Below are positions 6,801 to 26,614 of a stretch of DNA of 64,000 nt, one piece after another. How positions within the stretch are numbered: the first letter of the stretch is position 1; the number at the start of each line of letters is the position of its first letter. The notes under the pieces were generated by a model, which searched no databases, was not told the DNA's origin, and was given only the letters and a program-made list of their open reading frames with translations. Source of the DNA: Sulfurimonas hongkongensis (GTDB lineage: Bacteria; Campylobacterota; Campylobacteria; Campylobacterales; Sulfurimonadaceae); NCBI RefSeq assembly GCF_000445475.1, contig NZ_AUPZ01000002.1, positions 310,001-374,000 on the forward strand, given 5' to 3'. Made by a program: the position numbers and the translations under genes.

Positions 6801-6803
6801 ATC

Positions 6804-8708: not shown

Positions 8709-8723
8709 TATTAGGAGTTTATA

Positions 8724-9194: not shown

Positions 9195-9195
9195 A

Positions 9196-9720: not shown

Positions 9721-9735
9721 AAGTTATAAACATAG

Positions 9736-10944
9736 ATGAAAAAACTTTTAACTCTTTTACTTTTCATCTATAATCTTGATGCGGGACTGCTTCAAGATGC
9801 AATAGACAAAGCTCCATCAGGTTCTACACTAAAGCTTTATAGCGGTGTTTATAGTGATAACATTATAATTGTTAAACCTTTAACTATAATCGGTGTTGAA
9901 GATGGAGTTGTCATAGATGGTGGTGGTGTTGGAAATGTTATTAGCATTAAAAGCTCAAATGTAACTCTTAGCAATCTTACCATCCAAAATAGTGGCTCTC
10001 TTATGCACTCACTCGATAGCGGTATCAAGGTAGAAAAAGCAAAAAATATACACATAACTAAATGCAAGATTTTAGACTCTTTGTACGGCATAGATATGTA
10101 CATGGTGCAAGACTCCTCCATCAAAGAAAACTTCATACATTCAAAAGACATTGAGATCTCCCTAAGAGGAGATGCACTAAAGATATGGCACTCGCATAAC
10201 AATCTTATCTCTAAAAACACCATCACCAATAGCAGAGACATCACTCTAAACTACTCTCATGACAACATTATTGAAGATAACAATATCTCAAACTCAAGAT
10301 TTGCTCTTAAAGTAGCTCATAGTAAAAACACTCTTATAAAGAAAAATAGCTTTAGGTATAACTCTGTATCTTTAATAATGATGATGAGTGAGCATTCCAA
10401 AATCATAAATAACTCTATACTAAGCTCAAATGGAGCTGCAGGCATCGGAGTTATGCTTCAAGGTGGCTCAACTATTTTTGACTCAAACAGACTTAGATAC
10501 AATGCTAAGGGCATCTATATAGACTCAAATCCAAATGAGAAAGAGATGAAAAGATATATCACAAACAACGACATCTCTTACAACAAAGAGGCTATAGGTT
10601 TTCATATGACCATTAGACAAAATACTATCACCAACAATATTTTTGAAGGAAATATAGATGATATTGTAAAAGGTACGGCTGGATATAAGACTATGCTAAA
10701 CAGAGTTGAGTATAACTACTGGGATAGATATGCAGGTTTTGACACAGATGGAGACAATATAGGGGATAACTCATTTTTAATCTACCAATATGCAGATAGA
10801 CTCTGGCACTACAATAACAAAGTGAAATTTTTTTATGGCTCGCCAATTATGAGTATGCTAAATTTTTTAGCACAAGTTGCCCCTTTTATAGAGCCAAACC
10901 TACTTTTAGAAGACTCTAAGCCTCTCGTTGAGAGACTTAAATAG
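9736..10944 (+). CDS. NosD-like paralogue
   Basis: The 402-residue protein resembles NosD at 2802 along its whole length. It shares the opening AIDKAPSGSTLKLYSGVY, the beta-helix with a run of Asn-rich repeats, the NYWDRYAGFDTDGDNIGDN segment, and the end FFYGSPIMSMLNFLAQ. The signal peptide is MKKLLTLLLFIYNLDAG. It is the last gene of the nos strand; one base separates its stop from the end of convergent dsbD. It may be a second NosZ maturation factor or serve another copper protein. Which of the two NosD proteins partners NosFY cannot be told from sequence. Confidence 0.85.
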   Translation: MKKLLTLLLFIYNLDAGLLQDAIDKAPSGSTLKLYSGVYSDNIIIVKPLTIIGVEDGVVIDGGGVGNVISIKSSNVTLSNLTIQNSGSLMHSLDSGIKVEKAKNIHITKCKILDSLYGIDMYMVQDSSIKENFIHSKDIEISLRGDALKIWHSHNNLISKNTITNSRDITLNYSHDNIIEDNNISNSRFALKVAHSKNTLIKKNSFRYNSVSLIMMMSEHSKIINNSILSSNGAAGIGVMLQGGSTIFDSNRLRYNAKGIYIDSNPNEKEMKRYITNNDISYNKEAIGFHMTIRQNTITNNIFEGNIDDIVKGTAGYKTMLNRVEYNYWDRYAGFDTDGDNIGDNSFLIYQYADRLWHYNNKVKFFYGSPIMSMLNFLAQVAPFIEPNLLLEDSKPLVERLK

Positions 10945-10945
10945 A

Positions 10946-12724
10946 TTAGAGTTGGTTTAAGTGAGCTAAAAACTCATCAGGCCCAATAAAACCAATAATA
11001 GTTTTAGAGTCAATAACCTTAGATGAAGCATCAAAGAAGATTAGAGCTGGAGGTCCAAAGACTCCATATTTCTTACTCAAAGCTTTTTGCTCTTTAGAAT
11101 TTTCTGTAACATCTGCTTTTATAAAGACGAACTCATTAAGCTTTTCCTTTACCCTAGCATCTGCAAAAGTAACCCCATCTAACTCTTTACAAGATGTGCA
11201 CCATGAAGCATAAAAGTCAAGCATGATTTTTTTACCCTTGTGTTTAGCTAAAAGCTCATCAAGTTCAGCTATAGACTTTACTGTAGTATACTCTAACTCT
11301 TTAGTTTGAACCTGTATCTTGTTTGTACTACTTTGTAAAAACGAAAGAGGTTTAGTCATACTAGTTGAACCTCCAAGTGCCCCAATAAACAGTGCTACAA
11401 AGTAGATGAAAGATATAAGAGCCACACTTTTCTTAAAGATATGAGACTCTCTCTCAAATGCTCCTAAGTAGATAGCAAAACCGATACCTAGCATCGCATA
11501 AAGAAGCATAGTTACATACTCATCTAGCACGCGTTCAAGCATCCAAACTGCTACAAAGAGCATCATAACACCAAAAATAGCAGAGATCATAGTCATCCAT
11601 GCCCCAGGTTTTGGCATAAATTTACCTGCGCTAACTCCAACTACAATAAGTGGAAGCCCCATACCTATACTCATAAAAAATAGGGCCAATCCTCCAAGAA
11701 CAGCATCACCAGTTTGTCCAATATAGACTAGTGCGCCAGCAAGTGGAGCAGCCACACAAGGGCCAACTATAAGAGCTGAGAGAAAACCCATAATAGCTAC
11801 ACCAACATAACCACCCCTATTGCTATTTTTACTCACCTTCGCTACAAATGAATCAGGAAGCTTTAACTCATAAAATCCAAACATGCTAAATGCTAATGCT
11901 ACAAAAACTCCAGCAAAAGCATAAATCACCCACGGAGTTTGGAGTGCTGCTTGAAGGTTTGCACCAAAAAGGCCTGCTAAAATACCGGCGATAGTGTATG
12001 CAACTGCCATAGCTAAAACATAAACAACTGACAAGGCAAAAGCTTTTCTAGTAGTAAGCCCCTCGCCTTGAGAGATAATAACTCCAGAGATGATAGGAAT
12101 CATAGGAAAAACACAAGGAGTAAGAGCTAAAAGAAGTCCAAAGCCTAAAAATGTCAGAAGTACAAGCGTAATATTTCCTGTCTTTATAGTGTTTGCTATG
12201 GCATCTGTTTCTGAGACACTATCCTCTTTAGGTACTACTTTAGATGCCACACTTTTTTGATTGTCTATAGCTAAAACATCACTCTTAAGTGTAGATGCAA
12301 GCTCAAGTTTACTTGTATCTACTTCAAAACTGTAAGTAGCACTTAGTGGTTCATAACAGAGACCTTGCTCTGAGCAACCTTGATATGAAAGCACAAATTC
12401 AATGTTTTTAATCCCACTAATATCACTATCTTTTTGCAAGGTAACTAAAAACTCTGGAGATTCTAGGTAAACCATCTCTTCATGATGCAAAATGCTTTTG
12501 GGTTTTTCTATCTCTGCTATAGAGATACCACTGCCCTCTTTTACCTCTAGTTTTAACTGCTCGGCGTAGAGATAGATATCTTTAGCAATTTCTACAGAAG
12601 CCTCTATCTGCATTGAAGAGTTTATACTAGCATTTGGCTTAAAAGCCTCATCTGGCATCAAAAACTTTGGAGCACCAAAGAGAGTGATGTTTAGGACTAA
12701 AAGGGCTATAAAGAGTTTTTTCAT
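10946..12724 (-). CDS. dsbD: DsbD, thiol:disulfide interchange protein
   Basis: DsbD moves reducing equivalents from cytoplasmic thioredoxin across the inner membrane to periplasmic thiols. The 592-residue product has the full layout. There is a signal peptide, then an N-terminal immunoglobulin-like domain with a CSEQGLC cysteine pair. A membrane domain of about eight helices carries LTPCVFPMIP and VGPCVAAP cysteines, and a C-terminal thioredoxin domain has ASWCTSCKELD. As the last gene of the sox strand it could keep SoxY, SoxW and haem-site cysteines reduced. It is convergent with the NosD paralogue. Confidence 0.95.
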   Translation of the reverse strand: MKKLFIALLVLNITLFGAPKFLMPDEAFKPNASINSSMQIEASVEIAKDIYLYAEQLKLEVKEGSGISIAEIEKPKSILHHEEMVYLESPEFLVTLQKDSDISGIKNIEFVLSYQGCSEQGLCYEPLSATYSFEVDTSKLELASTLKSDVLAIDNQKSVASKVVPKEDSVSETDAIANTIKTGNITLVLLTFLGFGLLLALTPCVFPMIPIISGVIISQGEGLTTRKAFALSVVYVLAMAVAYTIAGILAGLFGANLQAALQTPWVIYAFAGVFVALAFSMFGFYELKLPDSFVAKVSKNSNRGGYVGVAIMGFLSALIVGPCVAAPLAGALVYIGQTGDAVLGGLALFFMSIGMGLPLIVVGVSAGKFMPKPGAWMTMISAIFGVMMLFVAVWMLERVLDEYVTMLLYAMLGIGFAIYLGAFERESHIFKKSVALISFIYFVALFIGALGGSTSMTKPLSFLQSSTNKIQVQTKELEYTTVKSIAELDELLAKHKGKKIMLDFYASWCTSCKELDGVTFADARVKEKLNEFVFIKADVTENSKEQKALSKKYGVFGPPALIFFDASSKVIDSKTIIGFIGPDEFLAHLNQL

Positions 12725-12791: not shown

Positions 12792-13262
12792 CTATTTGTC
12801 ATCAACAAGCAGGTAAGCATAACCTCTGTTTTGCTTGTCTATAAGAGCTATAGTAGAAGTTGGTACTATCTCTACAATACTAAGCATATCTTTATCTTCA
12901 AGTCCATTTTTAGTCATTCCGACTCTACAAGCATAAAATTCAACATTGTAAGTAGTAGCAAGAGACTTTATTCTGGTATGAAGCTCTTTGTACTTACTTA
13001 AGAGTTCTTTATCATCTTTATATTTTGTCTTATTTGGATCATTTACAAAAAACCTATAAGCACTCCCATGCACTACAACTGCAACTTCTAACTCTTTAAG
13101 TATACTCTCATAGTGATTTTTATTTACAACTATAGCCTTTAGTACTCTTTTTTCAAAAGTCTCTACATTTCCGGCAGTAAGATCAATAACAAGTTTTGGA
13201 GTTATATCCTCAGCACTACTTAAACCAACCAATAGCATCAATGCTAAAATTATTTTTTTCAT
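12792..13262 (-). CDS. Periplasmic DsrE-like protein
   Basis: The 156-residue protein has a Sec signal peptide (about residues 1-17, ending SSAED) and a DsrE/YchN-type alpha/beta fold pattern. This includes VAVVVHGSAYRFF and a later VEFYACRVGM that places one conserved cysteine where sulfur-carrying DsrE proteins have theirs. Exported single-domain DsrE-like proteins are common beside sox genes. A role as persulfide carrier or binding protein in the periplasm is inferred. It sits between the DUF302 gene and dsbD; a second DsrE-like gene is at 14211. Confidence 0.72.
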   Translation of the reverse strand: MKKIILALMLLVGLSSAEDITPKLVIDLTAGNVETFEKRVLKAIVVNKNHYESILKELEVAVVVHGSAYRFFVNDPNKTKYKDDKELLSKYKELHTRIKSLATTYNVEFYACRVGMTKNGLEDKDMLSIVEIVPTSTIALIDKQNRGYAYLLVDDK

Positions 13263-13274
13263 CTTTTTCTACCT

Positions 13275-14189
13275 TTATTCTGTTATATCTTTTAGTACAG
13301 ATTCAAAGTCTTTTTGTGCTTTTAAAAGAACTTCTTTTGAATCTTTATCTTTAACTCTTGCACTACTCATCCAGTTATAAACAGCTGGAAACCCTAAAAC
13401 TATCTTGTCTTCATCTTTTTTCTTATACAACATCAACGTACAAGGAGCAAAAGCACTAGCTTCTGGGCGTGTTAAGGAGACTGTGTATATTACCTTGAGT
13501 TTACAAATAGAGTAGGACACATAGAAGTCAAATGGAGTCTTACCATTTGACACGCTCTTTATCTCATCATTGTAATCCATATAGTTTGGCATAACAAAAC
13601 CAAAAGGAGCAAAACCATTTTCAAGATTCATCTCTATCTCTTCTCTTGCTTCATCAAAATCTTCTCCATCTAACTCTAACTCAAACTTAGAGACAAGCCC
13701 TCTACTCTCTTTAAGGCTATCTTCACTTATAGAGTGTTTAGCATCTTTAAAGTTCGTTCTTATTGCTTTTAGACTCTCTTGTTCTAGTTTTTTTAGTAGT
13801 TCATCATCAACTCCTAAAATTTTTGCTTGTGCCTCAGAGGTTAAAAAAGAGAGATGTAGCACATCTTCATCCTTAGCTTGATATATACCAACGCCAAAAG
13901 GTGTAAGTACGCCAGCTTCTGGGTACTTTTTAACCAACTCTGCTGATATTGTTTTATGATATATAGTTAAAAGGTTAAAGGTTTGAAACTTTGTCTTTTT
14001 AAACTGTTTTTTATAAGGATAGTTCATCTCACTATTTACCGCTATCATAAAATCACTCTTTTTAAACGCTTCTTCGACCGTTGTTGGTGTGATGGCACCA
14101 TCTTTGTTTTGTATCTCAAAAAGATGCAAATCTCCTGCTCCAAAGAGCATACTAAAACTAAACAGCACTAGTAAAACTATTTTTTTCAT
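13275..14189 (-). CDS. Exported DUF302-domain protein (two tandem domains)
   Basis: The 304-residue product has a signal peptide (about residues 1-17, ending LFGAG). Two related regions follow, each with the DUF302 style: an induced-change segment (FMIAVNSEMNYPYKK; FDFYVSYSICKLKVI), a short strand, then Pro-rich xxxPFGVGIYQ or APCTLMLYKKKD and a final small-domain helix. DUF302 proteins often accompany thiosulfate oxidation genes in Campylobacterota, but their function is not known. One cysteine lies in each of the STSICKL and APCTL regions of the second half. Co-oriented with the flanking DsrE-like genes. Confidence 0.7.
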   Translation of the reverse strand: MKKIVLLVLFSFSMLFGAGDLHLFEIQNKDGAITPTTVEEAFKKSDFMIAVNSEMNYPYKKQFKKTKFQTFNLLTIYHKTISAELVKKYPEAGVLTPFGVGIYQAKDEDVLHLSFLTSEAQAKILGVDDELLKKLEQESLKAIRTNFKDAKHSISEDSLKESRGLVSKFELELDGEDFDEAREEIEMNLENGFAPFGFVMPNYMDYNDEIKSVSNGKTPFDFYVSYSICKLKVIYTVSLTRPEASAFAPCTLMLYKKKDEDKIVLGFPAVYNWMSSARVKDKDSKEVLLKAQKDFESVLKDITE

Positions 14190-14210
14190 GTTTTTCCTTC
14201 GTATAATACA

Positions 14211-14645
14211 TTAAGGGACTATATTTACCCAACCCTCTTTAACTCTCTCAACAATCTCAACTATCCCAGCAGTAACTATCTCGCTACCATCTATAAGCTC
14301 ACTCTTGTTTATGTTTTTTGTAGTCATTGTATTTCCACAAGCTACAAACTCAACACCAAGGAGCATCAAAGCTCTCACTCTTAGAGCTATATCTTTATGG
14401 ACACTCTGCAAGGCTTTAATACCATGATAGTAAGCTATTATTCTCATCTGGACGTTATCAGGTCCATAAAATTTTAGAACATTATTAGCACTACTTAACA
14501 CATGATGAATCTCTGCATCATCTGCACTCTTGATTGAGAAGACAATTTGTCTTGGATCAGCAAAAGATGGCTCCGGCTCGGCAAACTTTGTCTCGGCTGT
14601 GAGTATCGCACACAAGAGTAAAATTAAAGTAAAATATCTTCTCAT
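14211..14645 (-). CDS. Periplasmic DsrE-like protein (second copy)
   Basis: The 144-residue exported protein (signal about residues 1-17) has a DsrE-type core: RQIVFSIKSADD, MRIIAYYHGIKAL and VEFVACGNTM with one conserved cysteine. It resembles the 12792 gene in fold but is clearly diverged. Its ATG overlaps the stop of the upstream thioredoxin-like gene (ATGA), which suggests translational coupling. A sulfur-binding or relay role near the Sox system is inferred. Confidence 0.72.
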   Translation of the reverse strand: MRRYFTLILLLCAILTAETKFAEPEPSFADPRQIVFSIKSADDAEIHHVLSSANNVLKFYGPDNVQMRIIAYYHGIKALQSVHKDIALRVRALMLLGVEFVACGNTMTTKNINKSELIDGSEIVTAGIVEIVERVKEGWVNIVP

Positions 14646-15025
14646 TTAAGATCCTTTGTTAGTGATTTAAAGTCCTCTATATTCCATGAACCAGGGATTT
14701 TCTTTTTAATATTATCATCTATATCTATAAAAAAGAAAGAGGGAGTAAAACTCACTTTTAAACCAAGTGGAAGTGAGTCTGTATCAAGATTTACTTTAAC
14801 TGGGATAAACCTCTCTTCTATCCATAAACTCATCTCTTTATCATCAAAAACATCTCTTTGCATATCGCTACAGAAGTGGCAATTACTTCGCATAACTTCA
14901 AGCATTATAAGCTTTTTACTCTTCTTTTGAAGTATCTTTGCTTCTTCATAAGTTTTAAAATCTAGTGCCTCTAAAGTAAGGCACAAAAGGGCTAAACAAA
15001 GAGCAAGAAGCCTTAGGCTACTCAT
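14642..15025 (-). CDS. SoxW-like periplasmic thioredoxin
   Basis: A 127-residue thioredoxin-fold protein with a signal peptide (about residues 1-20). The redox site is CHFC at residues 49-52 in a thioredoxin-like context (LEVMRSNCHFCSDMQ), followed by VFDD and a cis-Pro loop SFTPSFFF. Proteins of this kind (SoxW, thioredoxin_2 family) are thought to keep SoxY reduced, receiving electrons through DsbD or CcdA, and a DsbD is encoded in the same run. It overlaps the SoxH-like gene by eight bases and the DsrE-like gene by four. Confidence 0.75.
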   Translation of the reverse strand: MSSLRLLALCLALLCLTLEALDFKTYEEAKILQKKSKKLIMLEVMRSNCHFCSDMQRDVFDDKEMSLWIEERFIPVKVNLDTDSLPLGLKVSFTPSFFFIDIDDNIKKKIPGSWNIEDFKSLTKDLK

Positions 15026-15929
15026 CGCCCCACTCCAAAGTTCTATAAGCAGTCTCTATATTTTTAGTGTGCATCTCTTTATAAAGTTTTAGATGCTCAA
15101 ACTCACTCATACGAGAGTTTGCAAGAGTGTCTGTAATATCTTGTCCTTTGTCAATAGACTCTAGCACAAACTCTTTGATGGCTTTAAGATATCTCTTTGT
15201 CATCTCTGTGCTATCTTTAAGATAAAGACTTCCATGTCCACCTATGATAAACTTACTATTCTTTGCTTCTATCTCATCTAAGACGTTAATCCAATTGTTA
15301 ATATTGCCATCACGCAAAGATAAAACCCTCTCATTAAATACTAAATCACCTGCAAATACAACACTTTTTGATGGTATAAAGACTATCATATCATTGTCTG
15401 TATGAATAGTTTTATCAAAACTCGTAAGCTCTACCTTAACACCTTCAAGATCAAGTGTTTTCACTCCTTCTATATGCTCTGTAGGAAAAACTTCTTTAGT
15501 CTTAAGAAATGCTTCTTTAGAGATAAATCGTTGCATTCTTATGGGAGTTGCTTTTGGTGTATTTGCAAATATTTTAGCACCTATGATAGTTGCACCATTT
15601 TCTTTGTAGTATCCATTTCCAAGCCAATGGTCATCATGGATATGAGTGTTTATAACAAAAGAGACTTTTTGATTTTTGATAGCTTTCATGGCTTTATGAG
15701 CATCTCTTGCATACTTATAGCTAGGTCCGCTATCTATTACTAGATAACTTTTGCCTAAATCTACAAAGCAAGAGTTGCTTATATCACCGTTGTTGTGTGT
15801 ATCCATTATCTGTGGCTTGCCAAAAAAACAGTAGATTTTAGTCTCTATTTTTTTTGGCACAAGGGTGTACTCAAAGGAGAAAAGAGAATGAAAAGCTAAC
15901 GCTACAAACAATAATGACTTCATACACAC
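15018..15929 (-). CDS. SoxH-like metallo-beta-lactamase-fold hydrolase
   Basis: The 303-residue exported protein (signal about residues 1-18, ending LFSFE) has the metallo-beta-lactamase zinc motif NTHIHDDHWLGNG, a later FAGDLVF aspartate region and GGHGS histidine. The opening segment with YCFFGKP and a cysteine-containing NSCFVD is like the SoxH or quinoprotein-relay family of periplasmic hydrolases. SoxH occurs in some sox operons but is not essential for thiosulfate oxidation in Paracoccus. Substrate unknown; a thiol ester or glutathione-like thiol is possible. Confidence 0.72.
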   Translation of the reverse strand: MCMKSLLFVALAFHSLFSFEYTLVPKKIETKIYCFFGKPQIMDTHNNGDISNSCFVDLGKSYLVIDSGPSYKYARDAHKAMKAIKNQKVSFVINTHIHDDHWLGNGYYKENGATIIGAKIFANTPKATPIRMQRFISKEAFLKTKEVFPTEHIEGVKTLDLEGVKVELTSFDKTIHTDNDMIVFIPSKSVVFAGDLVFNERVLSLRDGNINNWINVLDEIEAKNSKFIIGGHGSLYLKDSTEMTKRYLKAIKEFVLESIDKGQDITDTLANSRMSEFEHLKLYKEMHTKNIETAYRTLEWGDE

Positions 15930-15948
15930 AACCTTCTAATATTATTTT

Positions 15949-17448
15949 TTAAAACAAGTAGTTTAATTCAAAACGGTACTCATTATATGAATCTTTATCT
16001 CCACCAGTTTGACGATCATCAGCATTTACTAAACCAACACGAACTTTTGCATAAAATTCAGGTGTGATTCTTTGACGAAAATCCATATGAAGAATCATAC
16101 TATCTGCTTGATTACCTGCTACTTGCTTTGCCTCATCAAAATTTTGCATTGCAAAACGAGCAAGTGCACTAAACCCCGAAATTAGACCAGCTTTATCAAA
16201 GTCATAGTTAACTTCTGCTGATGTAGTTTTTGTATTTGCATACCAGTTATACTGAGCCATAGCACGAGTATATCCACCAGTTGGAAAACCTCTCCATGGA
16301 GCTACTATATCTGCATCATCACTAACTGCAGAGTAAGCTACTTGAGCTTTCAGTGGTCCTTTTTTTAGAACCAAACGAGCCATAGCTAGCGATGAGTCAA
16401 GAGATTGTGTGTCTGTATATCCTAAGTTTGTTGTAGGAGTTTTATCTCTTGCTAATCCACCCTTTAGTGATGCACCACCAATTACACCACCACCATCATC
16501 CATTTGGTGCATATAGCGAACACCTGGGGTAAGAGAGTAGCCATCACCAATATCTATTTTGTAGTTTATCTCACCCGTGATTGAAGAGACAACGTCTGGA
16601 ACGCTTGCATATGTTACATCAAGTTGCAGCCCTTTTATAGACTTATTTTTAGCATCTATAATAATAAGTTCATGCGAAGTGTCTTCACCAGCATTTTTAA
16701 AGTTGTTATAAGAGAGACCCTTGTGTATTGCAGAGTCATCATTATTTCCCCAGCTATCTCCAGCAGAGTCTTTAAATGTTAAAACATCATGAAACTCTGT
16801 ATGATCTCTAAGTTTTTGTCCAGTAAAGTATGCCGCGCGGATAGTTGTATCTGGAATCTCTCTCATCTCAACAACAAAACCTTCAAAAGTATTTGGAATC
16901 ATCTTTGTATCATTTGACTTTGTAAGAAAAGATTCAAATATTTGACGACCAGCAATGACTTTTGTATTAGAGATTTCATATTGCAAATTAGCCTCAGCAA
17001 GTACAGCCATATTATAGCTTCCTGAGTTTTTGACATCATAACGGCTAATTGTGTCTTTACCAGCTTTTACTTTACCTATATCATTCTCATCCATGCGTAA
17101 AGCAGAAAAGGGACTACTTGAGTAGTAAAAGGCAGCTGAACCACTTACACCTTTATAAGGTGCAGTCTTATATGCAAGGCTACCACCTAGACCAAAAGCA
17201 TAGTTATCTAAGTTACCGCCAGTCTGCTCTTCTTTCCAGTCCCATCTAAAAGCATTTGTTCTAAGTCTTCCATAAAAGATACCCTCACTAAATGCCTCAG
17301 TAATGCTATCAACACTTTTTGGTGTTTTGTTTGTTACAACCATCATGTTGTTCTTAAGCTCACGTTTTGGTTTAGACTCATCGGCACTAAGTGGTGCTGT
17401 AAGTAAACACGCTACAGCAGTTACTAAGCTTAAATGTAGTTTTTTCAT
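15949..17448 (-). CDS. Outer-membrane porin (OprD-like)
   Basis: The 499-residue protein has a signal peptide (about 1-22, ending LSADE), alternating amphipathic strands throughout, and a terminal strand ending in NELNYLF with the C-terminal Phe needed for outer-membrane assembly. The layout fits the OprD/OpdA-like porins common in Campylobacterota. Placed between soxB and the SoxH-like gene, it may admit thiosulfate or another sulfur anion. That specificity is inferred from position only. Confidence 0.8.
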   Translation of the reverse strand: MKKLHLSLVTAVACLLTAPLSADESKPKRELKNNMMVVTNKTPKSVDSITEAFSEGIFYGRLRTNAFRWDWKEEQTGGNLDNYAFGLGGSLAYKTAPYKGVSGSAAFYYSSSPFSALRMDENDIGKVKAGKDTISRYDVKNSGSYNMAVLAEANLQYEISNTKVIAGRQIFESFLTKSNDTKMIPNTFEGFVVEMREIPDTTIRAAYFTGQKLRDHTEFHDVLTFKDSAGDSWGNNDDSAIHKGLSYNNFKNAGEDTSHELIIIDAKNKSIKGLQLDVTYASVPDVVSSITGEINYKIDIGDGYSLTPGVRYMHQMDDGGGVIGGASLKGGLARDKTPTTNLGYTDTQSLDSSLAMARLVLKKGPLKAQVAYSAVSDDADIVAPWRGFPTGGYTRAMAQYNWYANTKTTSAEVNYDFDKAGLISGFSALARFAMQNFDEAKQVAGNQADSMILHMDFRQRITPEFYAKVRVGLVNADDRQTGGDKDSYNEYRFELNYLF

Positions 17449-17467: not shown

Positions 17468-19234
17468 TTAACAACTTCTAGAGCCCTTTACTGGGCACCC
17501 ACAATCATAATCAATCAAAGTAACATTACCTTCATTGCTTACATCAACGACCTTTTTTCTTTTAATATAATCACGAGTAACATCATAAACTGCTCTTATC
17601 TTGTCTTTTTGAAGGTTTTCTCCTGCGTTTTGCAAGTTACCGCCCCAAGATGACACTATGTATGTTTTATCCAAGTCTATCGGCTCTCCTCCAATCATAA
17701 GTTTAGAAATACGCTCTCCTGCTGCATTTGCAACAGCAATAGAGTAAGTAACTCCACCCAAACGACTCATATCTCCACCTTGTTGGTAAAGAGGATTTGC
17801 ATTAAAAACATTATCTGCAATATCTTCTAAGAGAGTTGCGATTTTAGAACCCTTTAACTCAAATGTATAGACATTAGGGTAAGTGATACCACACATCTCA
17901 TATACATTATCCATCAATATATCATCACCTGCAAGAACTGTTGTTCCCCATCTATAACCAGGAGTAAAAGAGATATCACACTTCATTTCATCCATAATAG
18001 CATCATTAATCAATTGATCAAAAGTTGAGAAAAAAGTATCTCGCTTATAAAGAGTGTTCTTAGTTTTACCTAAAACTTCATTAAACTCTTTTGCAAACGG
18101 AGCATATAACTCATCTACAAGTTTCTCGCCTTGTGGATCTGCTGGAATCATATTAGAAGCGATAGGAACAAGTTTGTACTCGTAGTTATTTACTTTACCA
18201 TCTTTAGCATCTATATCTAAGCGACCAACATATTTGCCATGACTTCCTGCGATAACAATTACTGTTCCATCTATTACTATAGGTTTTGGCGATGGGTCAT
18301 GTGTATGTCCACTAAGTATAAAGTCGATGCCATGAACCATACGAGCTAGTTCTTGGTCCACACTAAAGCCATCATGAGATAAGACAACAACACAATCAAC
18401 TTTATGCTCATCTCTTAACTCATCAACATACTCTTGAAGAGTCTCAGCTCTTATGCCAAAACTCCAGCCCTCTGTAAATTCTCTAGGGTTGGCAGTTGAA
18501 GTAAAAGGAAATGATTGTCCTATAATTCCAATCTTAGCTCCACCTCTTTGCTCAATAGTATAAGGCTCAAAAATCAGCTCTTCATACTCATCTGCAAAAG
18601 GGTCATTTCCTACTACATTTTGAGAGATAAATTTAGCATCTAGCATCTCTATAAGCTCTTTTACTCTCTCTTTGCCATAAGTGAATTCCCAGTGACCAAC
18701 CATCACATCTACACCTAAGTAGTTTTGAGCTTTTACTATAGCCTCGCCTCTTGTTTTAAGTGCTACACCTGTTCCTTGCCATGTATCCCCAGAGTCTAAG
18801 AACAAGACATTCTCAGCTCCTCTTTCTTTTCTTACATGATCTAAGTAAGTCTTCATATGAGCAATTCCACCCATTTTTCCAAACTTTTTAGCTAATGTAT
18901 CAAAATCCATGTGTGTATCAAAATAAGCATCTAAACTACTAGGTTCTAGACCGTAGTGTTTAGCAAAAGCCTCTCCACATAAAAAGCCGGGAGTTCCAAC
19001 TAAGTTTGGAGCAGATATCAAAGTAGATGGTTCTCTCCAATATAGCGGTTTAATATGAGCATGAATATCGCACATATGTAACAGGGTAAAGTTTCCAGTC
19101 GCCTTAAAATCATAAATATCTTTTAGTGACACTTGTGCAGGAGTTTTAACGCTATCTTTAGAACATCCAACACTAACCGCACCTAGCCCTAAAACAGCAG
19201 CTATGTGCATAAAATCTCTTCTTGAAATATCCAT
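17468..19234 (-). CDS. soxB: SoxB, sulfate thiol esterase
   Basis: SoxB is the dimanganese periplasmic enzyme that hydrolyses sulfate from SoxY-bound cysteine S-sulfonate. The 588-residue product opens with a Tat signal (SRRDFMH, residues 4-10); a cysteine at residue 24 (SVGC) could make it a Tat lipoprotein. Metal motifs of the 5'-nucleotidase family are clear: MCDIHAHIKP, DSGDTWQGTGV, GHWEFTYG, LSHDGF and SGHTHDPSP. It follows soxA in the soxXYZAB order. Confidence 0.97.
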   Translation of the reverse strand: MDISRRDFMHIAAVLGLGAVSVGCSKDSVKTPAQVSLKDIYDFKATGNFTLLHMCDIHAHIKPLYWREPSTLISAPNLVGTPGFLCGEAFAKHYGLEPSSLDAYFDTHMDFDTLAKKFGKMGGIAHMKTYLDHVRKERGAENVLFLDSGDTWQGTGVALKTRGEAIVKAQNYLGVDVMVGHWEFTYGKERVKELIEMLDAKFISQNVVGNDPFADEYEELIFEPYTIEQRGGAKIGIIGQSFPFTSTANPREFTEGWSFGIRAETLQEYVDELRDEHKVDCVVVLSHDGFSVDQELARMVHGIDFILSGHTHDPSPKPIVIDGTVIVIAGSHGKYVGRLDIDAKDGKVNNYEYKLVPIASNMIPADPQGEKLVDELYAPFAKEFNEVLGKTKNTLYKRDTFFSTFDQLINDAIMDEMKCDISFTPGYRWGTTVLAGDDILMDNVYEMCGITYPNVYTFELKGSKIATLLEDIADNVFNANPLYQQGGDMSRLGGVTYSIAVANAAGERISKLMIGGEPIDLDKTYIVSSWGGNLQNAGENLQKDKIRAVYDVTRDYIKRKKVVDVSNEGNVTLIDYDCGCPVKGSRSC

Positions 19235-19244
19235 TATTTTAACC

Positions 19245-20018
19245 TTATCTTTTTAGTCCAGGAATTGCTATCTCGCTTCCCTTAGCTTCTTGAGTCAAAT
19301 ATACTTCGAGTCCTACCATCTCAGGCGAACCTAAAGGAATAACTGCTAACAAAGCATTATTCATACATCCTTGAAAACGACGTTGCAAAGTTCTTAATGA
19401 TGACTTTGTCATTCTATACGCTGGCCAAGTCGCAGCTGGTGCATTTCCCTTTCCACTTAAATCTGGCAATGGTTGAGTTCTTAAAATACCTCCTATCACC
19501 CGTTCTGAATGACAAGATAAGCATGAAAGCCCTCTAGAACCTCTTTTTTGTTCAAATGTTAGTTTGCCTAATTCGTACGCTTTTTTCATATGTTTGTTAG
19601 CGTTTATGTCTATTTGAAGTTTCTCTCCATTAGCAATAGACTTTGCATAAGCACTCATATCAAACATATCTGAACTCTTAAGAGCGAAAGGTTTGTGTCC
19701 ATTTTTATGCATCAGTCCTTGAAGCACTTGATCTAAAGCAACAACTTGCTTAAAATCTTCTAAATATCGCGGAAAACCTGCTATATAAGCTGGTAGTTTA
19801 TCTTCACTAACATTTAAAAACTTTGCAAGCCCAGCATCTCCACCACAATACTCTTCAAGAAGTTCCTCACCATTTCCCACCATAATATCTGCTGGATTGT
19901 CATCTAACATCTCAGCATACATTTCACGATCTGAATCACTCATAGAAAACTGCTCACTCGCAAAAGAAAGTGACCAAAGAAGAGTAAGAGATAGTGCTAT
20001 TTTGATTGTACTTTTCAT
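19245..20018 (-). CDS. soxA: SoxA, cytochrome c subunit of SoxAX
   Basis: SoxA with SoxX couples thiosulfate oxidatively to SoxY. The 257-residue product has a signal peptide (about 1-20). It has a single CLSCH haem site at residues 166-170, so it is the monohaem type, and RRFQGCMNN with Cys218, the expected haem-ligand or persulfide-forming cysteine. The N-terminal half keeps the SoxA domain but has lost the second haem site found in dihaem SoxA. Position between soxZ and soxB is canonical. Confidence 0.95.
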   Translation of the reverse strand: MKSTIKIALSLTLLWSLSFASEQFSMSDSDREMYAEMLDDNPADIMVGNGEELLEEYCGGDAGLAKFLNVSEDKLPAYIAGFPRYLEDFKQVVALDQVLQGLMHKNGHKPFALKSSDMFDMSAYAKSIANGEKLQIDINANKHMKKAYELGKLTFEQKRGSRGLSCLSCHSERVIGGILRTQPLPDLSGKGNAPAATWPAYRMTKSSLRTLQRRFQGCMNNALLAVIPLGSPEMVGLEVYLTQEAKGSEIAIPGLKR

Positions 20019-20021
20019 TGA

Positions 20022-20357
20022 TTATCCTTTTGGTTTAATCTTTGTGCTTTTTTCGTGAACTTCACCTGTACTATCACTATATGTAACACTTAATTTTCCC
20101 GCACCATTTACCTTCATATATGTAGTAAAAACTGGGTTTGTAGATAGTGACTCCCAAACATTCATAGTTGTAATAACTTTACCGTTATAGTCAAACTTAA
20201 CGCTGTTTATATACTTAGCTGGGATAATTTTTTTTGTTTTTTTATCTTTACGCATTCCAGTTTCCATCGGATGCATAACCATAAAACTGACTTTAACTAT
20301 CTCGCCGTCTTTATATTTTTTTGGCTTAATCTTAATAAGTGATTTTCTTTTTGACAT
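20022..20357 (-). CDS. soxZ: SoxZ, carrier complex subunit
   Basis: The 111-residue protein has the SoxZ immunoglobulin-like domain: KPKKYKDGEIVKVSFMVMHP near the N-terminus, the internal MRKDKKTKKIIPAKYI loop and the closing VHEKSTKIKPKG strand. It has no signal peptide of its own, as usual, because it is exported by the Tat pathway in complex with SoxY. It lies between soxY and soxA, three bases before soxA. Confidence 0.95.
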   Translation of the reverse strand: MSKRKSLIKIKPKKYKDGEIVKVSFMVMHPMETGMRKDKKTKKIIPAKYINSVKFDYNGKVITTMNVWESLSTNPVFTTYMKVNGAGKLSVTYSDSTGEVHEKSTKIKPKG

Positions 20358-20406
20358 TTCTTTTCCTTGGTTTATTTTATTTTAGATTTTGTTAAATGAT
20401 TGATTA

Positions 20407-20877
20407 TCAACCACATCCACCAATAGTTACTTTCACATTTTGACTAGCAGTTAAAAATGTGCCATCACTAAGCTCTACTACAGCAGCTACATCTTGAGTA
20501 TCTCCTAGTTTTATACGAGTAGCAAACATTGCTTTTCCGTTTGCTGGAGTTAAGTAGACATCGATACATCTAGTGTTAGCATTTTTTGTAGCTAAGATAT
20601 GTATAGCTTTTACATAGTCACTATCAGTCATAGGAGACTCTACCTCAACAGTAACAGGAACGACTGCACCATTCTCAGCGATCTCTGGAACTTTTAACTT
20701 TACTTTTGAAGACTCTGTAGCACCTTTTTTGCCAGTTATCGCATCGACTGCCGCCTTATACGAAAGTGCATTTGGACTTTTTGGACCTTTTGCCTCAGCT
20801 GCAAAACTAATCGCTGGAGAAATAGCAGCAATAGTAGCTACCGCACCTAGTTGTTTAAAAAAATCTCTTCTTTGCAT
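20407..20877 (-). CDS. soxY: SoxY, sulfur carrier protein
   Basis: SoxY carries sulfur intermediates covalently on its C-terminal cysteine. The 156-residue product has a Tat signal (QRRDFFKQL, residues 2-10) and ends in GGCG with the carrier Cys at residue 155. The swinging arm VKVTIGGCG is intact. It lies downstream of soxX (10 bases) and upstream of soxZ. Without soxCD nearby, full oxidation of the bound sulfane would need SoxCD encoded elsewhere, as in Sulfurimonas species with split sox clusters. Confidence 0.96.
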   Translation of the reverse strand: MQRRDFFKQLGAVATIAAISPAISFAAEAKGPKSPNALSYKAAVDAITGKKGATESSKVKLKVPEIAENGAVVPVTVEVESPMTDSDYVKAIHILATKNANTRCIDVYLTPANGKAMFATRIKLGDTQDVAAVVELSDGTFLTASQNVKVTIGGCG

Positions 20878-20887
20878 TTGTATATCC

Positions 20888-21406
20888 TTATTTTATTGAA
20901 ATAACATATGAAGTAATTTCACATATCTCTTTAGTTGTAAATAACTTAGTAGTTAAGTTAACAGTCATGTCTGTATTTTTGTTGTCTATACGAGGATCAG
21001 CGATTTTTTGAAAAACAAACTGATTGTCTCTGACACCACTATCTATAAACATAGCCTTATATCCTGTTAAGTCTGGACCAATATTTCCTGCACCCTTAGC
21101 ACCTTCAATATTGTGACAAGCCACACAGTTTCCATACTGTTTAGTTTTTCCCTCTTTAATAACTATACCTTTTGGTGGTTTTTTGCTTGCTTTGTTACTA
21201 TTTAGGTTGTGAAATATATAAGCACCCCTTGCAATAGCATCCTTGTCTGTTGTTATACAGCCATCAGGCATAGTATAGACTGTAGCTTTAGCTAGCAAGT
21301 CATCTTTGATTATCTTGCTCGCATTTGGCTTTTCTATCACACTACTATAATCAGCAGCAAAAAGTGAAGCACTTATTAGCAACGATATCATTACAGTTTT
21401 TCTCAT
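20888..21406 (-). CDS. soxX: SoxX, cytochrome c subunit of SoxAX
   Basis: The 172-residue product has a signal peptide (about 1-18, ending LFAA) and one haem site, CVACH at residues 94-98, in the class I cytochrome context YGNCVACHNIEGAKGAGNIGP. The DMTVNL methionine later in the chain is a likely distal ligand. It is the first gene of the sox structural block; an AGGAGGA ribosome site precedes its ATG. Upstream lie a direct-repeat operator candidate (21451-21472) and the histidine kinase gene on the same strand. Confidence 0.95.
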   Translation of the reverse strand: MRKTVMISLLISASLFAADYSSVIEKPNASKIIKDDLLAKATVYTMPDGCITTDKDAIARGAYIFHNLNSNKASKKPPKGIVIKEGKTKQYGNCVACHNIEGAKGAGNIGPDLTGYKAMFIDSGVRDNQFVFQKIADPRIDNKNTDMTVNLTTKLFTTKEICEITSYVISIK

Positions 21407-21450
21407 ACTCTGTTCCTCCTATTTTCATTTCAGTAGCAAGTGTATCTCTA

Positions 21451-21472
21451 CAATGTAAAATTAATGTAAAAT
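21451..21472 (-). promoter_or_regulatory. Direct-repeat operator candidate upstream of soxX
   Basis: Two adjacent 11-bp units read ATTTTACATTA and ATTTTACATTG on the minus strand, differing only at the last base. Tandem 11-bp-phased repeats are the usual binding pattern of OmpR/PhoB-family regulators, and one is encoded three genes upstream in the transcription direction. A TACACT -10-like element follows at 21444-21439. Binding is inferred. Confidence 0.6.
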
Positions 21473-21490
21473 GAGGTTTATTTATTAGAT

Positions 21491-22645
21491 TTATTTATTT
21501 ATAGAAGCAAATACATATAAAAACTCACTCCCTACCTTAGGAGTAGAGTTTATAATGAGTTGTATGTTTTCTTTGTCGATGATGGATTTTACAATGCTCA
21601 GGCCTATGCCAAAGCCACCCTTATTGATATTTTCTCTATAGTATCTGCTTAAAATACTCTCAACATTTTCTATCCCAACACCGTAATCTTTTATGCTTAA
21701 GTAGAGCTTTTCATCCTCTTTGTGCAAATTTACATCTATCTTTGAGTTTTCATATGAGTACTTGATGGCGTTTGAGAGAGTGTTATCTATAACTCGTTGA
21801 AGTTGTTTTGGATTCATATAAACTAGCAGTGATTCTTGTATATTTAAGTTTATAACTATATTTTTCATAAGTGCTACTTCACTAAAGTACTCTATTCTCT
21901 CTTTTAAAAACTTATCAAGATTAATATTTTGTTTTTTATACTCTAGCCTCTCATGTTTTATAAGATAGTCCATGTCATTATATATGTTAGATAAAACCTT
22001 AGATGCAGCCTTCATCCTTTGCATATACTTGTTTGGTTGATGCTTTCTGTTGTATAGGTCAATATTTACATTTATGATAGATAGCGGTGTGTTTATCTCA
22101 TGCATAGAGTCTTTGATGAAGTTATCTAACTGTTTGTTCATTCTTTGAAATGGTTTTGCAAAACTTTGTAAGAAAAATATACTAAGAGTAAAGATGAGAA
22201 TAACTATGCTAAAGAGTATATATAAAACTTTTTCATAAACAGATGCAAAAGAGAGTTTGTTTTTCACTATAAGATAAGAAGCTCCAAAATATCTATCTTT
22301 GGGGAGTTTTACTATCAAGTAAGCATCATTGTCTTCTACGTGATAACCATCTTTGAAGTAGTGTATCTTATAATCTATAAGAGAAAAAATAGGCTTAAAC
22401 TTCTCATCATAAAGCCCTGATTCAAATGTTTTAAATCGTGGATATTCAAAGTACTCTTCATGCTGGTTGTACTCTTGCATCGCTTTTATGATTAGTAGTG
22501 ATTTCTCTTTTAGTAGTAACTCATTTTCTATGGAGTGGATATTTTTCATATATATAAAGTAAAAAAAGAGTGGTGTTAAAAGAATTATAGAGACTAAAGA
22601 TGTATATATTAGTGCGTATTTTGCTGAGTATTGATTACCTTTCAA
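21491..22645 (-). CDS. Sensor histidine kinase next to sox genes
   Basis: A 384-residue membrane histidine kinase. TM1 spans about residues 11-33, a periplasmic loop of about 105 residues follows, and TM2 spans about 140-162. The dimerisation domain has the phospho-accepting His182 in MHEINTPL; the N box (NTLSNAIKYS), G1 (DYGVGI) and G2 (GFGIGLSIV) of the ATP-binding domain are intact. It overlaps the response regulator gene by 11 bases. It is co-oriented with a dCache protein gene and with soxX, whose upstream region holds an OmpR-type repeat, so control of sox expression is likely. The loop is small and has no recognisable sensor fold. Confidence 0.9.
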   Translation of the reverse strand: MKGNQYSAKYALIYTSLVSIILLTPLFFYFIYMKNIHSIENELLLKEKSLLIIKAMQEYNQHEEYFEYPRFKTFESGLYDEKFKPIFSLIDYKIHYFKDGYHVEDNDAYLIVKLPKDRYFGASYLIVKNKLSFASVYEKVLYILFSIVILIFTLSIFFLQSFAKPFQRMNKQLDNFIKDSMHEINTPLSIINVNIDLYNRKHQPNKYMQRMKAASKVLSNIYNDMDYLIKHERLEYKKQNINLDKFLKERIEYFSEVALMKNIVINLNIQESLLVYMNPKQLQRVIDNTLSNAIKYSYENSKIDVNLHKEDEKLYLSIKDYGVGIENVESILSRYYRENINKGGFGIGLSIVKSIIDKENIQLIINSTPKVGSEFLYVFASINK

Positions 22646-23291
22646 CTATATACCCTAATCCTCTTCTGTTTTGTATAACACCATCTGGGAGTTTTTTGCG
22701 TAAGTTATTGAGTTGCACTCTGATGGTAGCTGGTTCAACATACTCGCCCCAAACCTCATCTTGAAACATCTGCGTAGATACTACTGCATTTTTGTTTTTT
22801 ATCAGCACTTCTAAGAGATCTTGTTCCGTTTTTCTAAGTAAAATCTCTTCATGCCCTAAACTAAGCTTGCCTCTTTTCATATCATATGATAGCCCACTGC
22901 CAAAATGCACCAAAGAGCTATCATCTTTTAAAAAGCTAGCTAATGCTTGGTCGATGCGAAGCTCTAGCTCTTCTAAGTCAAATGGTTTTCTTATATAGTC
23001 ACAACAACCTGTTTTATAGCCTTTTTTTACTGCATCTATATCGCTCATAGAAGTTAAAAAGATAGCAGGAATTTTTTTATCATCTTCTTTTCTTAATTTT
23101 TTTAAAAGTTCAAAACCACTTAGAGATGGCACATTTACATCTAAAAGCAATATATCATAAGCTCTCTCATAGATGGCATCATAAGCCTCAAGCCCATCCA
23201 TAAAACCATCTACCTCATAGCCTATATCTGTTAAAAACTCTTCTATACTAATTCTTAGCGAATACTCATCTTCTAAAAGTAGGATTTTCAT
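22635..23291 (-). CDS. OmpR/PhoB-family response regulator
   Basis: The 218-residue product has a receiver domain with acidic pocket EDE (7-9), phospho-acceptor Asp51 (LLLDVNVP), Thr80 and Lys102 (RKPFDLEEL). A winged-helix DNA-binding domain follows, with the recognition region ATIRVQLNNLRKKLPDGV and wing RRGLGYIVE. Its ATG lies inside the end of the dCache gene (4-base overlap) and its end overlaps the kinase gene. The probable target is the 11-bp direct repeat before soxX. Confidence 0.92.
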   Translation of the reverse strand: MKILLLEDEYSLRISIEEFLTDIGYEVDGFMDGLEAYDAIYERAYDILLLDVNVPSLSGFELLKKLRKEDDKKIPAIFLTSMSDIDAVKKGYKTGCCDYIRKPFDLEELELRIDQALASFLKDDSSLVHFGSGLSYDMKRGKLSLGHEEILLRKTEQDLLEVLIKNKNAVVSTQMFQDEVWGEYVEPATIRVQLNNLRKKLPDGVIQNRRGLGYIVER

Positions 23292-24376
23292 TTTATCTTT
23301 CCATCTATTTTTTTAACTATATTTCTCTCTAACATCATCTGTATAAGCTCATCTTTTGAGTACTCATCAAACTTTTCATAAGCCTCATCTAAAAAGATCT
23401 GCCTATCTTGTTTGTCTATAACATCTTGAAGATAGACCATAGAGTTAGCCGAGTATTTATCATAAACATTATTGTTGTATTTCTCCCTTTTCACAACATC
23501 ATAGAGTCCACCTCTTGTGACATTTATGAGAAAAGATATATCATCTTCTGGATTTCTAAAGTAGTCTAGGTATTTCTCATCAAGCACAAAAACAAACCCA
23601 CCTATAGCCTTGTAGTCTCCATCATACATAGTCTCATAAAAGATATACTTATTATCTTTATATGCAAGTCTATCTAACTTTAGCTTTTGAAAATCTATCT
23701 TTTTTAAGGTTTGAATGTGGTCATAGTTGTAGTTTCTATTTGATACTATATAATCATCTACCATTAAGTTTTGCATCATAAGTACCGCAGTATCTATATA
23801 CTTTACATCCAATAAAACATAGATATCTACCCCCATGGAGTTAAAAAACTCAGTAATAGATTTAAAAAAAGAGATGACTTCTACAAAACCTAAAAACTCA
23901 GAACCTTTGTATATGGGGACTGTAGCTTTTATACCAAGACGTCTTCCTATCTCTATAGAAGTTCGTGGGACTTTGTTAGTCTCAAAGTACTTAAAGTCTT
24001 TTCTATACTCGCCTAGGGGCATTCCCGCATACATATCATCCCAACTTCTAGCAAAGATATTTAACTCTTTTGTTATGATTTGAGCTCTTACTAAGATATC
24101 TGTTTCTTTTTTTATGGTTGAAGTTATCTCTGAGAGCAGTTTGTAGCCTAAATCTTCATCATCATTTTCTAAGGCATCAACTAAAGCTTTGTTTTTAGAC
24201 AAAAATAGTGCCATCTTCAAATCATCCATCTTGTCAGATTTGAGCTTTGATTTTAAAACTATGGAGACTTGATCCATGATATGATTTATCTTTTGCTCTC
24301 TTACCTTGTCCTTGTAGTAAAACATTGCTACAACTATCAAGATTAAGATAAAAACAACTACAACTTTTTTTAGCAT
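23288..24376 (-). CDS. Membrane-anchored dCache ligand-binding protein without output domain
   Basis: The 362-residue protein has one N-terminal membrane helix (residues 4-21) and a large extracytoplasmic region that looks like a double Cache domain: long helix 25-100, then strands with FARSWDDMYAGMPLG at 109-123 and a second alpha/beta part. No HAMP, kinase, GGDEF or receiver domain follows. The last 60 residues are charged and helical. It is first in a run with the response regulator and kinase (overlaps of 4 and 11 bases), so it may act as separate sensor for that pair. The SWD-containing segment is shared with the divergent chemoreceptor at 24635 (residues 125-127). Confidence 0.75.
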   Translation of the reverse strand: MLKKVVVVFILILIVVAMFYYKDKVREQKINHIMDQVSIVLKSKLKSDKMDDLKMALFLSKNKALVDALENDDEDLGYKLLSEITSTIKKETDILVRAQIITKELNIFARSWDDMYAGMPLGEYRKDFKYFETNKVPRTSIEIGRRLGIKATVPIYKGSEFLGFVEVISFFKSITEFFNSMGVDIYVLLDVKYIDTAVLMMQNLMVDDYIVSNRNYNYDHIQTLKKIDFQKLKLDRLAYKDNKYIFYETMYDGDYKAIGGFVFVLDEKYLDYFRNPEDDISFLINVTRGGLYDVVKREKYNNNVYDKYSANSMVYLQDVIDKQDRQIFLDEAYEKFDEYSKDELIQMMLERNIVKKIDGKIK

Positions 24377-24634
24377 CTACACCTCTTACACTTCTTTGAA
24401 AGCCTCACTTGAGTTTATACATACTCTAGTTTTAGTTCGCATAGTATATCTACTTGTATTTTAAAGTCTTATGTAAAGTTATAAGAATTTATTTTAAATC
24501 TACATCTTAGCTTGATGCAAAATCTAGTTTATAAACTAATGAGAAACCTATCATATTTAGTCCTATCTTAGATTTTATATATATTTTACAAAAAACAACT
24601 ATACTCTATGATATTTTATTAAGGGGCGTAACAT
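24377..24634. promoter_or_regulatory. Divergent promoter region, sox regulators / chemoreceptor
   Basis: The 258 bases between the dCache gene (-) and the chemoreceptor gene (+) hold no coding sequence. The region is AT-rich, with a lone ATGTAAA near 24472 that matches half of the soxX upstream repeat in the plus orientation. A good AAGGGG ribosome site serves the chemoreceptor. Both promoters must lie here. Confidence 0.5.
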
Positions 24635-26614
24635 ATGTCTACAAAAAACTTTACACTTCTAAGCAAACTACTCATCGCATTGATACCAATCATACTTTTA
24701 GCATTTGTTATACTCTCATTTATTATGTACAAGCAAGTAGATTCTATACAAAATAATATATATAATAAAGAGGAACTCTCTTTAAAGAGTGACATTAAAA
24801 AAGACCTAAACACAAAGTTAGAAGCACTAAAGAACATTGTTATCTCCATCTCAAACAACTCTCTTGTAGTAAACAGCATGTATGATGAAGATCGCGAAAC
24901 TATCTTTAATGAGATATATAAACTAAGAGAAGCGCTAACCGCAAATAAATCCTTTAAAAACCCGCTTATACAAGTAGTAGATCTTATGAGTACCTCATAT
25001 GTAAAGTCTTGGGATAAGAGAGCTTACGGTGCAGATGTTGGTGTGCGTAACAGTATAAAAGCAGTTCAAAAAAAGATGACACCCTTTGTTGGCTCAGAAA
25101 TCACCAGAGGTGGTCTTATGATGGTTGCAACTGCACCTCTTATGTATGTTGTTGAAGATGAAGAGGCTGAATATACAGGAAGTGTTGACTTTATCTTGCG
25201 ATTTAATGCTCTTATCTATAAAAAGAGCGATCCACAAGATAGTCGCGATCTACTGATACTTGTAGATAAAAAGCACCTAGAAACTGCACATTATATAAAA
25301 GATCCTATAACTATCGGCTCTTACTATGTTGATCATGGGGATGACAAAGTAGATGAAACATTTTTAAAAGCGGCATCTGCTATAGACTTCAAAGCACTCA
25401 AGACAAAGGGACATCTCACCGATAAGCAATACTTTTACACCTATGAAAAGATTAAAAATAATGATGGACAAGAGATAGGTATGTTTCTCTTAGCCAAACC
25501 CCTAGATGAAGTAAAAGCAACAGCGAAAGAGGCCAGCCAAGCACTAATCTCTTTAATAATCATCTTTTTTATTGCAAGTATAATCATCTTATTTGTTCTA
25601 GTTTTTATTACAAAGGTCTTGATCTTATCTCCACTTGATGAACTCTCAGGCATCGCTAAAGAGATCTCTAGCGGTAGAGGAGATTTGACAAAAAGACTAG
25701 TTGAGAAGTCAAATGATGAGATAGGTAAAACCTCAAACTATTTCAACAGCTTTATAGAAAAAGTACAAGACATGGTCTCAAAAGTTATGCTCTCAGGGCA
25801 AAAAACATATGAAGATGTAGAGGGAGTTACAAAAAACTTAATAGAGATAAATGAACGTATGAGTCAGGAGAGAGGCTTTCTTCATAAAGCCACAGGCTTG
25901 GGCGTTGATGTTCAAAATATACTCAAAGAGTCACTAGATGATGCTATAAAGACCAGCAACAAAGTAAACCTTGCAGTTGAAAACCTCTCCGCCGCACACG
26001 ATGACATCATAAAACTTGTAGCATCTGTAAACAACGTCTCTGAAAAAGAAAACGAAATCGCTCAATCACTTGCTCAGTTAAGCAAAGATGCTCAAAATGT
26101 AAAATCAGTTCTAAATATCATAGTAGAGATAGCAGATCAGACAAATCTCTTAGCACTAAATGCTGCCATAGAAGCAGCTCGTGCAGGTGAGCATGGACGC
26201 GGTTTTGCAGTCGTTGCAGATGAAGTCAGAAAACTTGCAGAACGCACACAAAGCTCTCTTAGTGAAATCAATGCAACCATAAATGTTATAGTGCAGTCCA
26301 TCGTTGACTCAAGCACTCAAATAGATATAAATGCAAAATCAGTTGTACAACTAGTAGAGCACACTACAAATGTACAAGATAAGATACTAGAGAGTTCTGA
26401 GTACATTCAAGAAGCTGCTGTTATGGCTAGAAATTCAGAAGCTGTTTCTAAAAATCTTGCCCAAAACACTAGAAATATTATTAAAAATATAAATGATGTA
26501 GATGAGCTATCTACTCAAAACAAAGGCTCTTTAGAACAGATAGAACTAAAAGTAAAGACAGTACAAGGAAGTGCTCACGATTTAAATGAGCAACTAGGAT
26601 TGTTTAAAGTTTAG
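24635..26614 (+). CDS. Methyl-accepting chemotaxis protein with dCache-type sensor
   Basis: A 659-residue chemoreceptor. TM1 lies at residues 11-32, then a periplasmic double-Cache-like region to about 285, TM2 at about 292-318, a HAMP domain ([20 protein letters not shown] region), and the signalling domain. The conserved hairpin tip [20 protein letters not shown] and [16 protein letters not shown] is intact. No CheR-docking pentapeptide is seen at the C-terminus. It is divergent from the sox regulator operon, and its sensor shares the SWD segment (125-127) of the orphan dCache protein. A sulfur compound or a related energy-source signal is a reasonable but unproven ligand. Confidence 0.93.

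Follow-up and report, generated by a model that had tools for sequence, protein, structure and literature searches.

A putative three-component control system for sulfur oxidation genes in Sulfurimonas hongkongensis and its relatives

Which regulator controls the sox genes of sulfur-oxidizing Campylobacterota, which are important as primary producers at vents and redoxclines? Of all Campylobacterota species 30.7% have Sox systems, and the repressor SoxR is reported to be strictly confined to Proteobacteria (PMC10451225). A search of the open-access literature, with subscription papers outside its scope, found no sox regulator for Campylobacterota. We examined this question in a 64,000-nucleotide stretch of the Sulfurimonas hongkongensis genome (contig NZ_AUPZ01000002.1, positions 310,001 to 374,000), hereafter the window, in which an earlier sequence-only reading had suspected a three-component sensor controlling sox. 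Since three signaling genes lie beside sox, and a matching switch precedes sox almost everywhere that this trio occurs, the trio is probably a control system for sulfur oxidation, and probably one so far unreported in this group. It supplies a candidate regulator that can be named for Campylobacterota sox, together with an exactly located operator and a regulon open to test.

The signaling genes and the repeats upstream of soxX

The trio lies head to tail on the minus strand upstream of soxXYZAB. It comprises dC (23288-24376), a membrane-anchored periplasmic dCache protein of 362 aa; RR (22635-23291), an OmpR/PhoB-type response regulator of 218 aa; and HK (21491-22645), a sensor histidine kinase of 384 aa with a TTG start. 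Adjacent genes overlap by 4 bp (dC/RR) and 11 bp (RR/HK). Next on the same strand are soxX (20888-21406) and then soxY, soxZ, soxA and soxB (17468-20877), and all five equivalogs exceed their NCBIfam cut-offs (TIGR04485 for soxX; TIGR04488, TIGR04490, TIGR04484 and TIGR04486 for the others). The overlapping run of genes followed by soxX, as first described, is therefore confirmed by coordinates, Pfam and NCBIfam. The remainder of the sox cluster (12792-17448, minus strand) encodes an OprD-like porin, a SoxH-like metallohydrolase, a SoxW-like thioredoxin, a DsrE-like protein, a DUF302 protein and a second DsrE-like protein. At the far end of the cluster (5895-12724), translations read by eye indicate a nos-type accessory cluster on the plus strand and, after it, a DsbD-like gene (10946-12724, minus strand).

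RR has a receiver domain and a C-terminal winged helix (Pfam Response_reg and Trans_reg_C, both over cut-off), which places it in the OmpR/PhoB family, and it fell below the cut-offs of all named NCBIfam regulator models. The best-scoring of these was TctD, but an assignment as TctD was rejected because 119.6 bits is far under the equivalog cut-off of 337. SoxR was also rejected as an identity for the sox-linked regulator, since SoxR is an ArsR-type repressor. HK (HisKA and HATPase_c) has two transmembrane segments, and neither HAMP nor a Pfam sensor domain was detected in it. Its sensor loop, previously judged to be small, is not trivially so: the periplasmic loop covers approximately residues 34-138, where AlphaFold2 predicts a five-strand domain. 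A structure search with HK matched kinase cores only and carried no information on the loop.

The third protein, dC, belongs to the dCache_3 family by both profile match (Pfam, E 6e-9) and structure prediction. Its AlphaFold2 model (mean pLDDT 78.7) is closest among PDB folds to the dCache sensor domains vpHK1S-Z8 and DctB, with moderate TM scores. The single membrane helix and the lack of an output domain expected from the sequence were both recovered, the former as one N-terminal hydrophobic segment and the latter in the Pfam profile search. Residues R110 and W112 are invariant, paralogs included. The ligand carboxylate in amino-acid-binding dCache_1 domains is contacted by an arginine, R126 in PctA (PMC10104139); by analogy, our guess is that the R-x-W of dC could be an equivalent ligand arginine, which would suit an anionic ligand. 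We propose that dC is the signal receptor of the trio. The protein also has a conserved C-terminal tail, SKDELIQMMLERxxVKKIDGKIK (23288-23420), that is retained even in paralogs, with K341, E343, L344, I345, G359 and I361 invariant; this tail is a candidate contact surface.

Two abutting 11-bp direct repeats just upstream of soxX had been noted as a possible operator, and both are exact on the minus strand (ATTTTACATTA at 21462-21472 and ATTTTACATTG at 21451-21461) and conserved before soxX in relatives. A -10-like hexamer of the putative soxX promoter, TACACT (21439-21444, minus strand), begins 6 bp past the end of the repeats and 32 bp before the soxX start; in relatives the spacing between it and the second TTTACA is constant at 9 bp. 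Shuffled windows, when up to 3 mismatches are allowed, are expected to contain 0.01 repeat pairs per window, and likewise 0.01 of the 34-bp pattern (repeat, N9 and TAnACT). The 2.3-Mb genome has two sites within 1 mismatch of ATTTTACAnnnATTTTACA-N9-TAnACT, one at soxX and the other at a divergent chemoreceptor, and the 34-bp pattern with 3 mismatches allowed yields four sites, versus two for a reversed control. Pairs of TTTTACA at arbitrary spacing of 0-18 bp number roughly a dozen per genome, so discrimination rests on the 11-bp period together with the fixed -10 distance.

The abundance of such freely spaced pairs, and the resemblance of TTTACA to a -35 box, would favor a reading in which the repeats are bound by some other regulator, or belong to a strong housekeeping promoter in a genome rich in AT, and the neighboring trio serves another task. 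We regard this as very improbable. Only two sites with the full architecture exist in the genome, the 9 bp to the -10 element are too few for a usual -35, and 11-bp direct repeats are the very pattern expected of a PhoB-type regulator; further evidence on this alternative is given with the comparisons below.

An 18-bp pattern with 1 mismatch was rejected as a discriminator, its count being equal to that of the reversed control. A match with 3 mismatches at 14602-14635 was taken as chance, as it lies within the signal-peptide codons of a DsrE-like ORF (14211-14645). Between the -10 element and the soxX start (21407-21438), a CTCCT-GAA...AGGAGG pattern is kept in relatives. The CTCCT could pair with the ribosome-binding site, or the conservation may merely reflect the start-site region.

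Conservation of the trio, soxX and the operator

Among 100 genomes of the genus, 37 have an RR ortholog (66% identity or more) and 36 have soxX. Both were present in 35, RR alone in two, soxX alone in one and neither in 62 (Fisher 2e-23, uncorrected for the relatedness of the genomes, which inflates such p-values). In all three exceptions, G020 and G089 with RR only and G070 with soxX only, the locus is cut by a contig edge. The order dC-RR-HK-soxXYZAB is kept in the genus orthologs with enough contig, except in G043, where the trio lies among unrelated genes, unlinked from sox. The pattern ATTTTAYAnnnATTTTAYA-N9-TAnACT was found upstream of soxX in 36 of 36 soxX genomes; G043 is among them, the operator and -10 pattern staying at soxX on another contig than the trio. 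Altogether, 36 of the 37 genomes with RR have the site compared with 8 of the 63 lacking RR, one of these 8 being the soxX genome cut at a contig edge. The connection of RR with the operator is a correlation, and many of the relatives compared are MAGs. The rarity of the site in genomes lacking RR argues against another regulator or a housekeeping promoter.

Conservation extends beyond the genus. Searching named genomes with the dC alignment identified 80 loci, spread over Sulfurimonas, Sulfuricurvum, Hydrogenimonas, Nitratiruptor, Sulfurospirillum and Arcobacter. In essentially all of them dC precedes RR and then HK, with contig ends and one deletion locus (L167) as the exceptions; the gene of the proposed receptor is constantly linked to kinase and regulator genes, as befits a three-component system. 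Across 76 distinct soxX promoters, conservation of the two TTTTACA cores is 90-100%, the period is 11 bp and the distance to soxX is mostly 29-33 bp, although these figures are somewhat inflated by choosing each site as the best pattern match. The trio and a drifted operator recur in Sulfuricurvum, where the -10 element has become TAnAAT, as well as in Hydrogenimonas and other families. Long-type soxX genes in other families of the order have the same promoter architecture, and a full-length dC gene lies within 6 kb on the same strand at 36 of the 48 long-type soxX genes in the order; the short-type SoxX of other families is operon-internal and has no promoter to compare.

Two single loci bear on the pairing of regulator and site. 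At L214 both half-sites are altered alike (TTTCACA) and the recognition-helix region is divergent; from the sequences of this single case, a joint change of half-sites and recognition helix is suggestive. At L167 (6001-7679, Sulfurimonas MAG SI060_bin9) a deletion joins RR codon 20 in frame to the soxX start, so that the RR body, HK and the operator are missing together. Their joint loss would speak against the trio as a mere neighbor of a promoter used by another regulator, but the deletion may be either natural or an assembly artefact.

Further sites and the putative regulon

The other site in this genome, absent from the sequence-only reading and the sole second one, is ATTTTATATATATTTTACA-N9-TATACT (24572-24605, plus strand), 29 bp before a chemoreceptor (MCP) gene (24635-26614, plus strand). 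The sensor region of this chemoreceptor shows a distant similarity to dC (25% over 260 aa, E 2e-9), and the same site precedes the orthologs of two relatives (L130 and L133). Over the genus set, extra sites beyond soxX number 22 in the 37 genomes with RR versus 7 in the 63 without (P about 2e-5, rising to 4e-4 once near-duplicate species are merged).

Fifteen of the 22 extra sites in genomes with RR are upstream of sulfur- or dCache-related genes; three of the 22 (one on contig C3 of G048 and two in G093) were assigned through their identity with sites in G031 and G011. Five precede chemoreceptors, namely the MCP of the window, its orthologs in G062 and G073, in which the site is kept though unlinked from sox, and a second dCache type in G045 and G082. 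Three precede transporter genes of the YeeE/YedE family (Pfam Sulf_transp), whose E. coli member YeeE takes up thiosulfate (PMC11073785). Another three are at DUF302-DsrE pairs and one at a SoxW-like thioredoxin gene. These are relatives of genes downstream in the sox cluster of the window, so the site is also carried by such genes where they lie apart from the cluster. The last three are at DsrE-dC-RR-HK operons, from which we infer that the trio may be autoregulated in several species; a site before the trio's own operon speaks against binding by another regulator. The remaining seven precede winged-helix, AAA-type and hydrolase genes with no clear sulfur role.

Gene context in the genomes lacking RR covers five of the seven extra sites, the other two being that in G059, which has the same sequence as that in G030, and that in G077. 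Those in G030, G049 and G085 are inside ORFs, and that in G072 is upstream of thiC. The site in G087 is upstream of a dCache chemoreceptor, and a few such 1-mismatch sites in the absence of RR count against the proposed control of sox by RR. As a separate observation, operator-like sites at L127:1763 and L139:1333 precede a protein of 142-147 aa that ends in an OmpR-like winged helix; no obvious receiver domain was seen in it.

Taken with co-occurrence, synteny, phylogenetic footprinting and the unlinked case, this coherent regulon gives good support, from sequence comparison, to the proposed control of sox by RR through the operator. The suggestion of a locally encoded system held in that the trio adjoins sox, but not in full, as unlinked genes in relatives, and here the divergent chemoreceptor, appear to be controlled too. 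In Sulfurimonas the regulon at this site would comprise dCache chemoreceptors, YeeE/YedE transporters, DsrE/DUF302 proteins, a SoxW-like protein and, in several species, the trio operon; the shared site would tie lithotrophy to chemotaxis. soxCDYZ of this genome would be outside the regulon, as a search there found no operator site. This fits its different response in Sulfurovum indicum, in which soxABXY1Z1 transcripts are higher on thiosulfate and soxCDY2Z2 transcripts on S0 (PMC10045233); the same source also cites differential sox regulation in S. denitrificans. Control by the trio could explain the different responses of soxXYZAB and soxCDYZ to sulfur compounds.

Proposed mechanism, signal and relation to known systems

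In the proposed mechanism, a periplasmic sulfur-related signal would bind the membrane-anchored dC, and dC would alter HK activity through the periplasmic loop of HK. HK would then phosphorylate the PhoB-type RR, as is usual for these families. RR would bind the two 11-bp repeats, located by phylogenetic footprinting, in the -35 position and recruit RNA polymerase to soxX, presumably as a class II activator rather than a repressor. We consider it likely that the trio is one signaling unit that activates sulfur (thiosulfate) oxidation via RR at the repeats before soxX. A wider version can be put forward tentatively, as quite possible: dC, acting in trans with HK, would sense thiosulfate or a sulfur anion related to it. 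The trio would then be the ancestral, order-wide master regulator of Sox-based lithotrophy in Campylobacterales, and would jointly switch on the enzymes of oxidation, the transport of sulfur and those chemoreceptors whose sensor domains are related.

The HK loop could take part in sensing, judging from its predicted fold. If the loop were the real sensor, RR and HK would control sox while dC served as an accessory modulator or adaptation protein that binds no ligand. The predicted five-strand domain and the good conservation of the loop among orthologs (79% in close and 62% in middle ones) would suit this arrangement, but dC is almost always present as the third gene throughout the order. When the sox trio is compared with its paralog, identity is 29% in the dCache domain, 40% in the HK loop and 62% in the HK DHp domain; the dCache domain as the most diverged region suits the part that sets specificity, which is suggestive at most. 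We think it unlikely that the loop is the sensor and dC the accessory, and prefer dC as the receptor.

The signal itself we infer to be a sulfur compound, which fits the regulon and the gene neighborhoods. Regulon content and a paralogous dC2-RR2-HK2 trio, which adjoins split YeeE/YedE genes, a DsrE-like gene and a porin, both point in this direction. Alternatively, the trio might respond to a correlated cue, for instance nitrate, an organic acid or some other redox-related ligand, so that the regulon concerns sulfur oxidation and sensing is indirect. The closest dCache folds of solved structure have ligands such as dicarboxylates, amino acids and uric acid, and we know of no dCache domain that binds thiosulfate. 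Against such a cue are the sulfur-related regulon, the YeeE/YedE and DsrE genes beside the paralogous trio, and the thiosulfate-dependent expression of soxXYZAB in a relative (PMC10045233). We see a non-sulfur signal as possible but doubtful. The paralogous trio, found at L071:4634-11387 and at L072, L222, L224 and L225 beside a porin and DsrE-like gene (at L071 and L072 also beside the split YeeE/YedE genes, behind a divergent MerR-like gene), is possibly a second sulfur-sensing system. Its porin promoter was dropped as support for the operator because its TTTTACA words have a 12-bp period.

The pho box places two 11-bp repeats directly before the -10 element. The sox site shares with it an OmpR/PhoB-type regulator and direct repeats that replace the -35, but differs in its repeat (ATTTTACAnnn), kinase architecture, regulon and third dCache component. 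TctC or BctC with TctD-TctE are three-component systems with an extracytoplasmic binding protein. They too have a separate periplasmic receptor gene beside a kinase and an OmpR-type regulator, but the receptor of the trio is a membrane-anchored dCache rather than a solute-binding protein, and its genes concern sulfur rather than tricarboxylate uptake. Control of this kind is established in the phylum by PceS/PceP of Sulfurospirillum, with an OmpR-family regulator that binds direct repeats overlapping the -35 in a respiratory gene region (PMC7755780). That system differs in its repeat (CTATW-N17-CTATW) and its kinase with seven transmembrane helices, and the passages considered mention no dCache third protein (PMC7755780). 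SoxR/SoxT1B of Proteobacteria shares sox control by sulfur compounds and a YeeE-like protein tied to regulation (PMC10451225, PMC11582611), but SoxR is an ArsR-type repressor, whereas the trio has a PhoB-type regulator with a kinase and is probably an activating system. RsrS-RsrR of Acidithiobacillus caldus is likewise a two-component control of inorganic sulfur oxidation, but it acts on the tetrathionate intermediate pathway in another phylum (PMC5093147). Taken singly, the parts of the trio are all of known types; what appears to be undescribed is their combination, in which a PhoB-type system linked to sox constantly includes a stand-alone, membrane-anchored dCache protein as its third component. 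The trio would be an example of dCache sensing in trans, and a sulfur biosensor might come from it. Stand-alone dCache proteins also recur in pairs in genomes of one other family, f20, about 17 kb apart on opposite strands (e.g., G287:C1:298708 and 316748).
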